This document shows positions 3,542 through 11,648 of a stretch of 11,648 bases of DNA, piece after piece. The position numbers and the translations under genes were made by a program. Numbering within the stretch: the first letter of the stretch is position 1; each line of letters starts with the position of its first letter. The stretch is from Anaerolineae bacterium (lineage in GTDB: Bacteria; Chloroflexota; Anaerolineae; 4572-78; J111), in assembly GCA_020433835.1 (NCBI GenBank), contig JAGRBY010000188.1, positions 1-11,648 on the forward strand. Direction: 5' to 3'. Below the pieces are notes generated by a model. That model did no database searches and was not told where the DNA came from. It saw only the letters and a program-made list of their open reading frames with translations.

Positions 3542-4577
3542 GGCCAATATCCAGCCCAAAATTTTGTGGGTCGGCAGTATCGGTGGAATGGAGCAGCAAT
3601 TGGTTGAACGGGCCGGTTTGGAGATTGAGTTGATCCCGGCTGGCGGACTACGCGGTAAAAGCCCGGTAGCCGCTTTGCAAGGTTTGTGGGCGCTTATGCG
3701 GGGCTATCGTCGCAGCCGACAAATTTTGCGTTGGTTTCAGCCTGATGCTCTTTTTGTAACCGGCGGATATGTGTGTGTGCCGGTTACGCTTGCGGCTCGA
3801 CACCTGGGCATCGCCAGTTTGATCTATTTGCCCGATATCGAACCGGGCTTGGCGATAAAATTTTTGTCGCGCTTTGTGGATCGGGTGGCGGTGACCACAA
3901 CCGAGACCAAGCAGTTTTTTAAGCCGGGCCAAAGCGTGGTAACGGGCTATCCCGTGCGAGAAGATTTGCTCATTGATATATCGGCTGAGGCCAAAGCCAA
4001 CGCCCGCCGTGAGTTGGGCTTAGAGGGTACCCTGCCGGTGCTGCTCGTTTTCGGCGGCAGTCAGGGCGCGCGTAGTATCAATCGGGCTTTAACAAATGAG
4101 ATTGCACGCTATTTGGCGGTCAGCCAGATTATCCACATCACCGGCACGCTTGATGCGGAGTGGGTTTTAGCTCGGCGCGATGAATTAGCCCCGATGCTGC
4201 AACAACGCTATCACGTCTTCGATTACATGCACGAAGCCATGACCTCGGCGCTACTGGCAGCCGATTTAGTAATTTCGCGGGCAGGAGCCAGCGTACTGGG
4301 CGAATATCCGGTGGTTGGTTTACCGGCTATTCTTGTCCCGTATCCCTATGCCGGCTCTCACCAGGCGCTTAATGCCCATTATCTGGCTCAGCAACAAGCT
4401 GCCATTGTGGTTGAAGATGCTAATTTGAGTCGCGATTTAAGCCCAATAGCGATTGATTTATTAACACATGAGGAGAAATTGCAGGCCATGAGCCAAGCCT
4501 GTCGACGTTTAGCCAAGCCTGATGCGGCGGCGCATCTGGCTCGAGAGATTTTAGAGGTGAACCGCAATGGAAATTAA
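3453..4577 (+). CDS. murG: Lipid II synthase MurG (UDP-GlcNAc transferase)
   Basis: Peripheral membrane GT-B glycosyltransferase of 374 residues that adds GlcNAc from UDP-GlcNAc to lipid I, giving lipid II on the cytoplasmic face. GTG 3453 is chosen because the family N-terminus (RLIISGGGTGGHVYPALA) begins there and AGGA (3444-3447) lies 5 bases upstream. Motifs: GGGTGGH (7-13), VTGGYVCVPVTLAA (102-115), GGSQGARSIN (201-210), ISRAGASVLGE (274-284), and GLPAILVPYPYAGSHQALNA (289-308) in the nucleotide-sugar domain. The acceptor-side loop that is HEQN-like in E. coli reads YLPDIEPGLA (125-134) here. The gene overlaps ftsW by 89 bp and the following membrane gene by 11 bp, so translation is probably coupled. 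Length is normal for the family. Confidence 0.96.
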   Translation: MRLIISGGGTGGHVYPALAVVQSLNRLCAEANIQPKILWVGSIGGMEQQLVERAGLEIELIPAGGLRGKSPVAALQGLWALMRGYRRSRQILRWFQPDALFVTGGYVCVPVTLAARHLGIASLIYLPDIEPGLAIKFLSRFVDRVAVTTTETKQFFKPGQSVVTGYPVREDLLIDISAEAKANARRELGLEGTLPVLLVFGGSQGARSINRALTNEIARYLAVSQIIHITGTLDAEWVLARRDELAPMLQQRYHVFDYMHEAMTSALLAADLVISRAGASVLGEYPVVGLPAILVPYPYAGSHQALNAHYLAQQQAAIVVEDANLSRDLSPIAIDLLTHEEKLQAMSQACRRLAKPDAAAHLAREILEVNRNGN

Positions 4578-5327
4578 CTGGACCTTGCTTTCTTACGTTG
4601 TTATCACAATTTTCGCGATTGTGGGATTTTACCGGGGGTGGTGGCGCGAAGCCATTATCTTTGTCTTTTTGGCATTTCTTATTTTTCTCTTGCTTAACCC
4701 CTCAATTGCTCAACTCATTATAGAGCAAGTCAATGGAGTGCTCGCGTTTATCTGGAATTTAATCCCTGCTGCGTTCAAACCAACGGTGAGTACCAGTATC
4801 GATGCCGCTTTTTCGGTGGATACAAGCGGTGGACCTCTCCAGATTAATCCCAGTAGTGGGGCTACCTGGATTATCATTCTGACACTCTTTCTGGTTGTCG
4901 CCGTGCTCATTGGTCGTGGCTTTTTGGCGGCTGATATAGCGCGTGGTGGTACGCGTTTCGCGCCTACCTGTTTGGGAGTATATTCGGGGGCTTACTCGGC
5001 GCACTCAATGGCCTCATCATCTTAAACTTAGTCCGCGAGTATTTGGACGGGCGTAATCTTCCCGGCGGAGCTTTACCGTCGGAAATTGCCCAAACTAGCG
5101 GCAATATCGGTATTAGTGCTTCCAGCTTTGCGGTAAGAATATCCGATGTTCCCCAATTCACGATTTTGGACAGCATTACGCCTTGGATATTCGTTGGTAT
5201 CGGCGCATTACTTATCATCGTTCTCTTAAGAAACCGCGTTCGGTTTGTGAAAAGCGCCCAAGGATTTAGAAAGATTGATCGCCTGAGACCGTATGGATAT
5301 CGGGAGATTGACGTTAAGGTTAAATAA
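4567..5327 (+). pseudogene. CvpA-like membrane protein, copy 1, frameshifted (or recoded) near 4971-4977
   Basis: ATG 4567 (GAGGTG at 4554-4559) opens a frame of 152 codons that ends at 5025. From about 4971 the similarity to the next gene moves to the -1 frame, which stays open to TAA 5325-5327. Joined, the two parts give about 253 residues, close to the 243 of copy 2. The junction PT-CL-GSIFGGLLGALNG aligns without a gap to PT-GF-GKLLGLGMGALNG of copy 2. The N-terminus (INWTLLSY...GFYRGWWREAI) and the G-rich GGLLGALNGLIILNLVREYLDG segment resemble the CvpA family, with membrane helices near 6-24, 28-46, 102-120, about 135-155, and one near the C-terminus. The shift fits loss of one T from a T4 run, an assembly error, or -1 slippage on T TTG GGA. 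The unshifted product would lack the last two membrane helices. CvpA membership is by eye; the role is unknown. Confidence 0.75.
4971..4977 (+). other. Slippery-type heptamer T TTG GGA at the frame change
   Basis: In the frame set by ATG 4567 the codons here are TTG (4972-4974) and GGA (4975-4977), preceded by T, which is the X XXY YYZ pattern used for -1 frameshifting. Slipping back one base gives TTT GGG and enters exactly the frame that encodes the rest of the protein. T TTG GGA is not among the most efficient known slip sites, and I see no convincing downstream pseudoknot, so a plain one-base deletion in the same T-run remains the simpler explanation. Confidence 0.3.
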
Positions 5328-5337
5328 AGGTTAAGGC

Positions 5338-5409
5338 ATGCCTGATGTTGGCGCGACTCTTGGTCTATCTGCCTATGGGGTTATCGAAGCCGCGCAAGAG
5401 GTTGAATGA
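5338..5409 (+). CDS. Possible 23-codon leader ORF overlapping the CvpA-like copy 2 start
   Basis: ATG 5338 has AAAGG (5326-5330) 7 bases upstream and reads MPDVGATLGLSAYGVIEAAQEVE before TGA at 5407-5409. This fills nearly the whole gap between the two CvpA-like genes. Its stop codon overlaps both candidate starts of the next gene (ATG 5406 and ATG 5409), an arrangement typical of translational coupling. An open frame this short is expected by chance about one time in three, so the support comes from the ribosome site and the overlap only. No homologue is recognised. Confidence 0.3.
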   Translation: MPDVGATLGLSAYGVIEAAQEVE

Positions 5410-6140
5410 TGCAAATTAACTGGACGCTTCTAACATATATAATCATTATCTTTTTTAGTATTGTCGGGTTTTCCAGAGGCTGGTGGCGCGAAGCCATTTT
5501 TACAGTCTTTTTTGGGATTCTTATTTTGTTATTGCAGAATCCTGATTGGGCCCAGACTATTATTACCTTTGTGAATGACATCATTGCCTCCGTTTGGTCC
5601 TATATCCCAACCGGGATCACCAATGTTGTTAACAACGGCTTAACCAACTTTTTTGCGATTACTACCCGCAGCGATACACCGTTTCAACTTGATCCCACAG
5701 CCCCTGAAACCTGGTTGTCTATCCTCCTTATAGGTATGCTCAGTGCCTATCTCATCGGCCAAATTGGCTTTACCTATAACCCTACCGGTTTTGGTAAATT
5801 GCTGGGTCTGGGTATGGGCGCTTTAAACGGCTATCTTCTTTTAAGTATTGCCCGAGAATATTTAGACGGACGCGCTCTACCCGGCCAGGGTACGGCTGCC
5901 GCCGCTGCAAGTTCTGAAGTTTCGCTGGTGGGGAGCAGTTCGTTTGGGCCACCTGTTTCAACCGTTACTATTCAGGCGGTTAACTTACCTGAGATCACGC
6001 TAATGGACAGCATTATTCCCTGGATTGCGATAGCAATTGGCGGATTATTCTTATTTACCCTTATTAACACCCGCTTTCGATTACTCTCCAGCAACGACGG
6101 CCGTAAGATCGAAGCCCGGGTTCCGCCGTTCCATAAGTAA
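5409..6140 (+). CDS. CvpA-like membrane protein, copy 2
   Basis: Membrane protein of 243 residues, function unknown. Helices are predicted at about 6-24, 28-46, 102-119, 129-147 and 199-219, with a polar loop at 47-100 and an Ala/Ser-rich loop at 160-190. Two segments resemble the CvpA (colicin V production) family: an N-terminus WTLLTYIIII...GFSRGWWREAI (5-30), and TGFGKLLGLGMGALNGYLLL (126-145), comparable to the TDRVLGICFGALRGVLIV segment I recall from E. coli CvpA. About 39 of the first 66 residues match copy 1 by hand alignment. ATG 5409 is preferred to 5406: GAGG (5398-5401) is 7 bases away and MQINW then aligns with MEINW of copy 1. It sits between murG and murC, so a role at the envelope or septum is a reasonable inference, no more. 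Confidence 0.8.
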   Translation: MQINWTLLTYIIIIFFSIVGFSRGWWREAIFTVFFGILILLLQNPDWAQTIITFVNDIIASVWSYIPTGITNVVNNGLTNFFAITTRSDTPFQLDPTAPETWLSILLIGMLSAYLIGQIGFTYNPTGFGKLLGLGMGALNGYLLLSIAREYLDGRALPGQGTAAAAASSEVSLVGSSSFGPPVSTVTIQAVNLPEITLMDSIIPWIAIAIGGLFLFTLINTRFRLLSSNDGRKIEARVPPFHK

Positions 6141-9987: not shown

Positions 9988-10884
9988 ATGTTTAACAAGA
10001 AAAAGCGACGACGTCGGCGCTCTGAGATGCGCTTAGGAACACAAGCTATCAATTACGAAACCACCGCCACCAAACCCGGCCTCTCTCTGGAACCGGTGAT
10101 GCGTTTCTGGCAATCGCGTGGTACAAACTATATCGCGTTTGCGCTGTTAGGACTGTCTCTATGGGTTTTGTATATGCTATTTACAGCGACTTCGTTCTTT
10201 GTTTACGGGGCTGAAATTCGTGGTAATGTGGCGATATCGGCCCGTGAGATTTACCTGGCGAGTGACATCGACAGCCAAAGCATCTTTTGGCTGAATCCGG
10301 TGGCCATAGAGCATAAGCTCGAGTCGCTGCCGAATATTAAATCGGCCTCAGTGTCGGTGGCGCTGCCGGCGCAGGTGGAAATTGTTGTCACCGAACGGCG
10401 TCCGCAGTTATTGTGGCAATCCGGTGACACCGTCTGGTGGGTCGATGAAGAAGGCACGGTTGTTCCACCCAAAGCCGAGGTGGAGGATATGTTAAAAATT
10501 ATCGATGATGACCGGCAGGCGCTTGAAGTGGGCTATCAAATCGACCCGGAACTCATTAAAGGCGCTCAGACGCTGCGCATTTTGGCCCCCGATGTTCGCG
10601 TTGTGCGGCATGCCCGGGCCAAGGGATTGATTGTGTCAACGCCGGAAGGCTGGCCCGTTTTTCTGGGCAGCGGCAGCGATATGAAATCGAAGTTGGTGGT
10701 GCTGAGTAACCTACTACCCACTCTCCGCCAAAACGAACGTCCGCCGTCTTATATCGATTTACGCGACCCGCTGCAGCCTGTTTATTATACGTTACCGGAA
10801 GTCCAAATCGAACCACCAACATTACGTCAACCTGTTCCCGCTTTCCCATCTCGAATACCAAGATTTGGACAAAATCCGCCTTAA
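9988..10884 (+). CDS. ftsQ: Cell division protein FtsQ (DivIB type)
   Basis: Bitopic division protein of 298 residues that links the septal synthase to early divisome proteins. It has a short, very basic cytoplasmic start (MFNKKKRRRRRSE), a long linker to about residue 46, one membrane helix (about 48-68), a POTRA domain (about 71-138, from FFVYGAEIRGNVAISAREIY to VEIVVTERRPQLLW), and a beta domain with WWVDEEGTVVPP (150-161), VFLGSG (224-229) and YIDLRDPLQPVYY (255-267). The last 30 residues are Pro-rich. Domain order and position just before ftsA identify FtsQ despite the weak sequence conservation of the family. The start has only a weak AAGAAG site, directly after the repeat arrays; Met14 (10027) is a less likely alternative. 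Confidence 0.9.
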   Translation: MFNKKKRRRRRSEMRLGTQAINYETTATKPGLSLEPVMRFWQSRGTNYIAFALLGLSLWVLYMLFTATSFFVYGAEIRGNVAISAREIYLASDIDSQSIFWLNPVAIEHKLESLPNIKSASVSVALPAQVEIVVTERRPQLLWQSGDTVWWVDEEGTVVPPKAEVEDMLKIIDDDRQALEVGYQIDPELIKGAQTLRILAPDVRVVRHARAKGLIVSTPEGWPVFLGSGSDMKSKLVVLSNLLPTLRQNERPPSYIDLRDPLQPVYYTLPEVQIEPPTLRQPVPAFPSRIPRFGQNPP

Positions 10885-10897
10885 ATTTTAAGGAAAA

Positions 10898-10913
10898 GTA
10901 CAATATGTTGTGG
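10898..10913 (+). promoter_or_regulatory. NrdR-box-like site 1
   Basis: GTACAATATGTTGTGG matches about 12 of 16 positions of the NrdR-box consensus as I remember it (acaCwAtATaTwGtgt). NrdR is the ATP/dATP-sensing repressor of ribonucleotide reductase genes and binds two such boxes. This site shares the 13-base core ATATGTTGTGGTA with site 2 and lies upstream of the proposed -35 element. Confidence 0.55.
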
Positions 10914-10922
10914 TATAAGATA

Positions 10923-10951
10923 TTGCAAAATACTATATGTTGTGGTAAACT
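10923..10951 (+). promoter_or_regulatory. ftsA: Candidate sigma-70 promoter for ftsA
   Basis: TTGCAA (10923-10928) and TAAACT (10946-10951) are separated by 17 bases; each matches four of six consensus positions, including TTG and the first TA and final T. Transcription would start near 10958, giving a leader of about 85 bases before the ftsA GTG. The 159-base gap, long for this cluster, supports a separate transcription start here. Confidence 0.5.
10930..10945 (+). promoter_or_regulatory. NrdR-box-like site 2, inside the ftsA promoter
   Basis: ATACTATATGTTGTGG matches about 13 of 16 positions of the remembered NrdR-box consensus. It begins 32 bp after site 1 (16-bp linker), the spacing of about three helical turns that is usual for NrdR box pairs. 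It fills the spacer between the proposed -35 and -10 elements, so a bound repressor would block RNA polymerase. Confidence 0.6.
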
Positions 10952-11043: not shown

Positions 11044-11648
11044 GTGGACCGTACAGTTGTCGCCTTAGATATCGGCACTACAAAAATCTGTACATTGGTT
11101 GCCGAAGTCGGTCCGCCCCCAGAGAATACGATGCGGGTTGTCGGTGTCGGTATGGTTCCGTCACACGGAATTCGGAAGGGTGTGGTGGTTAATGTTAATG
11201 AAGTCACCGCCGCCATCGTCGAGTCGATAAATCGGGCAGAGCGAACTTCAGGCTACGAAATTGCCAGCGCCTACGTTGGCTTAGCCGGTGCGCACATTAA
11301 CGCTGTAAATAGTCGTGGTGTAGTTGCCATTAGTCGCGGTGAACGCGGCATTCGGCCTATCGATGTTGAGCGTGCTTTAGAAGCCGCTCGGGCCATCGAT
11401 ATCCCTCACAACCGTGAGGTGCTGCACATCATCCCTCGCGGCTTCTCTGTTGACGGCGACGACGGCGTGCGTGACCCGGTCGGGATGCAAGCCTATCGAC
11501 TGGAAGTAGAAGCGCACATCGTCACCGGCTCAACCTCCTCCATCCGCAATTTGATTAAGTGCGTGCAAAGCTCTGGCATCCAAATTGATGCGCTGGTGCT
11601 GGAACCGCTGGCCTCTGGTGAGTCCGTTCTTACGGATATGGAGCGCGA
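11044..11648 (+). CDS. ftsA: Cell division protein FtsA, 5' part
   Basis: Actin-like ATPase that anchors FtsZ filaments to the membrane; 201 codons are present and the frame runs off the window. GTG 11044 is chosen because AAGGGGGT (11028-11035) is well placed upstream and the family N-terminus starts at once: VVALDIGTTKICTLVAEV (5-22), the phosphate-1 region. Then come VVGVGMVPSHGIRKGVVVN (about 32-50), INRAERTSGYEIASAYVGLAGAHI (62-85 region) and NSRGVVAISRG (89-99) leading into the 1C subdomain. REVLHIIPRGFSVDG, DPVGMQAYRLEVEAHIVTG and LVLEPLASGESVL follow, all strongly FtsA-like. No internal stop is seen. ftsZ would be expected just downstream, outside the window. Confidence 0.95.
   Translation, partial: MDRTVVALDIGTTKICTLVAEVGPPPENTMRVVGVGMVPSHGIRKGVVVNVNEVTAAIVESINRAERTSGYEIASAYVGLAGAHINAVNSRGVVAISRGERGIRPIDVERALEAARAIDIPHNREVLHIIPRGFSVDGDDGVRDPVGMQAYRLEVEAHIVTGSTSSIRNLIKCVQSSGIQIDALVLEPLASGESVLTDMER

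Follow-up and report, generated by a model that had tools for sequence, protein, structure and literature searches.

It has long been asked how bacteria coordinate division with DNA synthesis, and most of the known links act through DNA damage, the position of the nucleoid or growth metabolites. A preliminary description of the locus analysed here, from an Anaerolineae bacterium, had pointed out on the promoter of the division gene ftsA two sites resembling NrdR boxes, which usually lie before ribonucleotide reductase genes. This raised the question of whether a sensor of dNTP status could sit directly on the promoter of a Z-ring gene. If so, the two processes would be linked in one step, and in one group of Chloroflexota the making of the division ring would perhaps be coupled directly to the supply of nucleotides.

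The box pair in the ftsA promoter

The window (the whole stretch of 11,648 nt that was analysed) is a dcw cluster, running from the end of mraY through murD, ftsW, murG, two small membrane proteins, murC, murB, ddl and ftsQ to ftsA, with some of these names assigned from gene order and sequence alone (Table 1). The nearest matches to its FtsA are in Anaerolineae MAGs (92% in a protein search), with 89% and 87% against H5_CFX5 and H5_CFX7, and in the two closest named genomes the ORFs of L001 and L002 place ftsZ about 0.1 kb downstream of ftsA. Elsewhere in the cluster, tandem, similar membrane-protein genes with no Pfam match lie in the murG–murC interval (4567-5025 and 5406-6140), the first of which runs on in another reading frame and is therefore frameshifted or misassembled; a small ORF of 107 codons lies between mraY and murD (333-656), with no Pfam match for the 95-codon portion that begins at 369.

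Table 1. Features around the ftsA promoter (window coordinates) and loci with related sites in relatives.
Feature	Position	Strand	Remarks
ftsQ-like gene	9988..10884	+	directly upstream of ftsA promoter; NF004039 E 9.6e-5, below its cut-off; dcw-cluster position
Octamer TTTTAAGG	10886..10893	+	starts 37 bp upstream of -35; possible activator or UP-like element
Predicted NrdR box 1, GTACAATATGTTGTGG	10898..10913	+	20.0 bits, matrix from nrdR promoters alone
-35 element TTGCAA	10923..10928	+	identical in 9 pair-bearing family rows; 17 bp to -10
Predicted NrdR box 2, ATACTATATGTTGTGG, between -35 and -10	10930..10945	+	20.4 bits, matrix from nrdR promoters alone
-10 element TAAACT	10946..10951	+	TAAACT or TACACT in 9 pair-bearing family rows
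ftsA, first 201 codons, runs off window	11044..11646	+	GTG start; TIGR01174 212 bits, over cut-off
Pairs before minC-minD	L176:961-1008, L211, L215, L217
Sites at phosphoribosyltransferase gene	L251, L253-L258, L262, L263, L265, L266

The description of two 16-bp sites with a common 13-base core, 32 bp apart, the second between TTGCAA and TAAACT, was confirmed by the coordinates. Between the ftsQ stop (10884) and the ftsA GTG (11044) the elements begin, in order, at 10886 (TTTTAAGG), 10898 (box 1), 10923 (-35), 10930 (box 2) and 10946 (-10). The core ATATGTTGTGGTA occurs without mismatch in the window only at 10903-10915 and 10935-10947. Measured start to start the boxes are 32 bp apart, equivalent to a 16-bp spacer; box 1 ends 9 bp ahead of the -35 element and box 2 occupies the 17-bp gap between the hexamers except for one base. 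The NrdR-box consensus is a palindromic 16-bp sequence, ACACWATATATWGTGT, and the two boxes agree with it at 12 and 13 of the 16 positions.

Scores were obtained with a weight matrix built from 26 boxes (13 pairs) of relatives' nrdR promoters, with no ftsA sequence included. The 13 training pairs score 27.4-44.2 bits, 12 of them 38 or more, and the pair in the window totals 40.4 bits. When the 163-nt ftsQ–ftsA spacer was resampled by a first-order model, none of 20,000 sequences reached that total, the maximum being 13.7 bits. Thresholds were chosen in this analysis: 24 bits for a clear pair, and 13 bits in the phosphoribosyltransferase survey described below. A background scan of 1.28 Mb (80 loci plus the window, with three true sites masked) gave only two places of at least 24 bits, one in the nrdR promoter after ftsZ in L051, the other in the space between trmD and HTH-mraZ-rsmH of a Dehalococcoidia MAG (L014:7823), and the next four scores (19.7, 19.7, 19.1 and 15.6 bits, in L016, L017, L075 and L014) were also upstream of nrdR. 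Because the top background places were mostly nrdR promoters, the matrix is specific for NrdR-type sites.

In published work, NrdR tetramers loaded with dATP and ATP act as repressors: they occupy two boxes set about three turns apart, where they kink the DNA, and high affinity requires both boxes (PMC9110341, PMC12051234). A C and a G nine positions apart are critical and are read by NrdR near D15/R17 (PMC9110341); spacers of 14-17 bp, or one helical turn more, permit binding, 16 bp falling in the commonest class (PMC12051234). The pair in the window has palindromic 16-bp boxes, a spacer within 14-17 bp, C and G nine apart and overlap with the predicted promoter. The reductase operators of Streptomyces coelicolor nrdRJ, Escherichia coli nrdHIEF and Listeria nrdDG share with it two palindromic 16-bp boxes separated by 15-16 bp, with about three turns from centre to centre, overlap with the polymerase site, and C4/G13 (PMC9110341, PMC12051234). 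Unlike these operators, and unlike the ordinary NrdR regulon, in which the target is a reductase gene or nrdR, the gene here is ftsA, and the sites remain in genomes in which nrdR is not linked to it. Counting against an ftsA target, NrdR has been described as specific to RNR (PMC9110341).

Conservation in relatives

The relatives compared were the 25 genomes of the order of H5_CFX5, 12 of which make up its family; 21 of the 25 yielded an FtsA, 11 of them family members. H5_CFX5 (L001) and H5_CFX7 (L002) keep the same ftsQ–ftsA promoter block as the window. Conservation of the pair and its spacing, on which the preliminary description had made its reading depend, was evident: 17 of the 21 ftsA promoters carry a pair of at least 24 bits (8/11 inside the family, 9/10 outside), with the boxes 32 bp apart in 16 and 31 bp apart (15-bp spacer) in G022. 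The eight pair-bearing family relatives score 36.3-43.3 bits, so that in the window's family the ftsA pairs stand level with the nrdR pairs, a comparison that the preliminary description had proposed and that was made here in the relatives; outside the family the pairs are weaker (24.1-39.4 bits, or 24.1-38.4 over the rows that were aligned, and a poor 16.7 in G023). C4 and G13 are both kept in 18 of 19 box-1 and all 19 box-2 ftsA sequences, the window included. Over the nine family rows the commonest base accounts for 91% in box 1, 96% in box 2, 94% in the octamer stretch, 100% in the -35 and 93% in the -10 element, whereas the variable linker has 69%, the 5' UTR 50% and the end of ftsQ 35%.

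Box 2 lies between the -35 and -10 elements in the window and in all the pair-bearing family rows, and with box 1 ending so close to the -35 element the boxes might owe their conservation only to the hexamers, or to chance. Such an explanation is very improbable and largely refuted. Box 1 lies outside the hexamers yet is conserved, and no resampled spacer approached the observed score. Moreover, a clade nested within the family (G009, G011 and G012; support 96/96) keeps an ftsA promoter with 17-bp spacing and TAAACT but not the boxes (below -20 bits), although it makes a less stringent control than it first seems, because its MAGs are possibly incomplete and because a contig of G011 ends in a half-site. 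The absence of nrdR from two of its MAGs may reflect such incompleteness, and the G011 contig (L103) breaks 310 nt upstream of nrdR inside a 12-nt box-like half-site, so that nrdR of G011 may still have boxes; the half-site scores 11.3 of a maximum 18.4 bits, a value reached by 2 of 26,090 positions of four loci.

A profile trained on nrdR pairs matched the ftsA pairs weakly (E 0.025-0.25 among the matches listed) because its spacing is 30 rather than 32 bp, and the spacing-tolerant matrix was used instead. A second profile, made from the ftsA pairs, matched 18 of the 396 genomes in the class with E values no higher than 1e-4, all from this order, in a search that scored at most 14 candidates per genome with stricter filters that lose weak matches. 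The match is at the ftsA promoter in 17 of these genomes, for 16 of them by construction, as those 16 and the window formed the training set and only G022 stood outside it; G021, in which no FtsA was found, matches elsewhere. Among the 62 of 80 wider loci compared together with the window, only L001 and L002 besides the window carry the pair, and in these three 25-26 of 32 positions agree with the consensus; in the other 60 the best pair upstream of ftsA reaches 20 of 32. The 18 loci omitted had titles naming another phylum or not enough sequence upstream. On these two results we rejected the idea that the pair is a general trait of Chloroflexota.

nrdR and its own box pairs in the same genomes

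An nrdR gene was likewise something the preliminary description had required. One gene over the TIGR00244 cut-off was found in 22 of the 25 genomes of the order (none in G009, G012 or G017); of the 17 genomes whose ftsA pair is clear, 16 have it, G017 being the exception. The family count of 10 in 12 covers relatives of the window's organism, which would presumably carry the gene as well. A reductase large-chain domain follows nrdR on the same contig and strand in nine of the ten family genomes with nrdR, and was not matched behind nrdR in G011. The NrdR of G001 matches solved NrdR chains, and the gene behind it encodes NrdJ, the adenosylcobalamin-dependent enzyme (TIGR02504, over cut-off).

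A pair of at least 24 bits precedes nrdR in 15 of the 22 genomes, 30 bp apart in 13 and 31 bp in two, and in the family rows these pairs sit downstream of a -10 element of TATACT/TATAAT type. No upstream pair of that strength was seen in G013, G019, G023 or G025, and G022 reached only 11.0 bits; the upstream sequence was limited to 310 nt for G011 and 389 nt for G024. In G022 the nrdJ ORF is immediately preceded by a 27.5-bit pair, and in G019 a 36.8-bit pair stands ahead of a short ORF with nrdJ behind it.

The octamer TTTTAAGG accompanies many of these pairs. Within the family, all nine ftsA promoters that carry a pair have it, the window's among them; in the eight relatives it starts 37-38 bp upstream of the -35 element, and it also occurs before nrdR (L081, L082 and L096, for example); the two octamers of G015 have the form TTTTAAGA. 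Its distances to the -35 element at ftsA and nrdR fall at 16-17, 26-28 or 37-39 bp, about one helical turn apart, the pattern expected if an activator contacts polymerase from a single face. No octamer was seen close to the three boxless ftsA promoters or to six of the eight pair-bearing ones examined outside the family. Counting either strand, there were 21 occurrences in 9.1 kb near pairs against 6 in 205.8 kb elsewhere in 56 loci, an enrichment that is descriptive, as nearly all the loci are of the family and were chosen for their sites. The phasing suggests that a second factor may be shared by the ftsA and nrdR promoters.

The hint of a further factor at these promoters would fit the alternative that the pair is bound not by NrdR but by a regulator recognising a similar palindrome, its likeness to NrdR boxes being incidental. 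The weak members of the set, which depart from the consensus in one half-site, would also fit such a regulator. We nevertheless find it quite improbable: the same motif, with spacing near that of NrdR sites, lies before nrdR or nrdJ in the same genomes, the family ftsA pairs match the nrdR pairs in score and keep C4/G13, and on other Chloroflexota loci the matrix found mostly nrdR promoters.

The sites could alternatively serve to autoregulate a long ftsA-ftsZ-nrdR(-nrdJ) transcript, with control of ftsA and ftsZ as a by-product. As the preliminary description had anticipated, nrdR does follow ftsZ in some genomes: in G014 (ORFs in L178), by position in G015, and in 12 of the 80 wider loci, where a sequence pattern locates nrdR on the same strand as the ftsA match, 2.4-6 kb further downstream; G017 has a 42.7-bit pair behind the FtsZ ORF at a contig end. 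As an explanation of the ftsA sites the linkage was rejected, because in the two closest named genomes (G001 and G002) nrdR-nrdJ is on another contig with a pair of its own, and nrdR was not found in the sequence available behind their ftsZ. In G019 nrdR is about 570 kb from the ftsA locus on the same contig, and the ftsA pair persists in all three; where nrdR does lie behind ftsZ it has its own pair as well (41.9 bits in G014, 27.4 bits in G015). We therefore regard the long transcript as an unlikely reason for the present sites, although it is possibly how the pair arose: the ftsA promoter may have gained its operator in an ancestor in which the genes were linked. Other Chloroflexota (L014, L016, L017 and L051) share this type of ftsAZ-nrdR linkage with a box pair at nrdR, but no pair was found before their ftsA, whereas the window's relatives have separate ftsA and nrdR pairs.

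The occurrence of nrdR, the conservation and the matrix scores in the relatives all agree with the pair being NrdR-type sites at the ftsA promoter, and the earlier reading is thus supported by sequence comparison. Our preferred reading, to which we give a probability of about 0.78, is that the two boxes constitute an NrdR operator integrated into the ftsA promoter.

Predicted regulation and further sites

Under control by NrdR, a tetramer loaded with dATP and ATP would hold both boxes, about three helical turns apart, and kink the DNA, covering the stretch just upstream of the -35 element together with the gap between the hexamers. Because box 2 fills that gap, occupancy should exclude RNA polymerase. 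Transcription of ftsA, and probably of ftsZ if the two are co-transcribed, would then be lowered when dATP accumulates, and the block would lift once replication consumes dNTPs. The sites allow this to be tested with one purified protein and one DNA fragment, for which the ftsA promoter of the boxless clade offers a natural control.

NrdR has been put forward once before as a putative division repressor, in sporulating cells of Clostridium beijerinckii (PMC6362236). That proposal has NrdR as a division repressor in common with ours and rests on nrdR lying near ftsA-ftsZ and on an expression profile; it is a one-line hypothesis, without binding sites and for another phylum (PMC6362236), whereas here a predicted operator on the ftsA promoter is conserved. 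Streptomyces WhiA binds at ftsW and nrdR, so that one regulator would reach both division and dNTP supply, as proposed here; WhiA appears to repress nrdR (PMC3781837), whereas here NrdR, a nucleotide sensor, would act on a division gene. For E. coli NrdR, FtsZ is reported in a database interaction network (PMC4898720). No NrdR site at ftsA or minC was seen among the openly licensed papers examined; on that basis the type of operator is known and the ftsA target appears to be new.

Profile searches of the order, in which at most 150 candidates per genome were scored and which therefore give a lower bound, found further sites. Pairs 32 bp apart (28.7-44.6 bits) precede minC in four of the 21 genomes with a minC match (G003, G005, G008 and G010), with none of note before minC in the other 17; MinC and MinD are named by NCBIfam in G003, and TTTTAAGG is present in reverse before minC in two of the four. 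G015 has a 34.5-bit pair before a PBP2-like gene upstream of minC. At a phosphoribosyltransferase gene, pairs of at least 13 bits, 29-32 bp apart and weaker than the ftsA pairs, were present in 11 of 22 genomes and absent at that threshold in the other 11, G009 and G011 among them; one box overlaps the TATAAT side of the promoter and the second is usually half-degenerate. This gene is xpt-like and adjoins a guaA-like gene where seen (Pfam: Pribosyltran and GATase; the names xpt and guaA are our own assignment). Sites confined to single genomes, before dnaN (G004, 26.2 bits), a NUDIX gene (G010, 43.2 bits) and others, may be noise or recent, whereas those at minC and the phosphoribosyltransferase gene recur.

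The ftsA pair argues that the NrdR regulon may extend beyond reductase genes. A broader and tentative view, for which we would not claim even odds, is that NrdR in this order acts as a cell-cycle regulator, jointly controlling reductase, the Z-ring (ftsA-ftsZ), Min in several species and purine salvage, with a second factor that binds TTTTAAGG at ftsA and nrdR, in helical phase with RNA polymerase; its Min target would be minC-minD, or the PBP2-like gene upstream of minC.

Two minor observations concern pairs in other surroundings. The background place in L014 (7823-7869), a 27.9-bit pair in Dehalococcoidia MAGs, lies between trmD and the HTH-mraZ-rsmH run leading to ftsA-ftsZ-nrdR-nrdJ and could serve either direction; a looser, 31-bp pair was read by eye at a similar place in L016 and L017. 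In G013 (L198:1500-1547) a 44.7-bit pair stands beside repeats of TTATCCACA, which we take to be DnaA-box-like.
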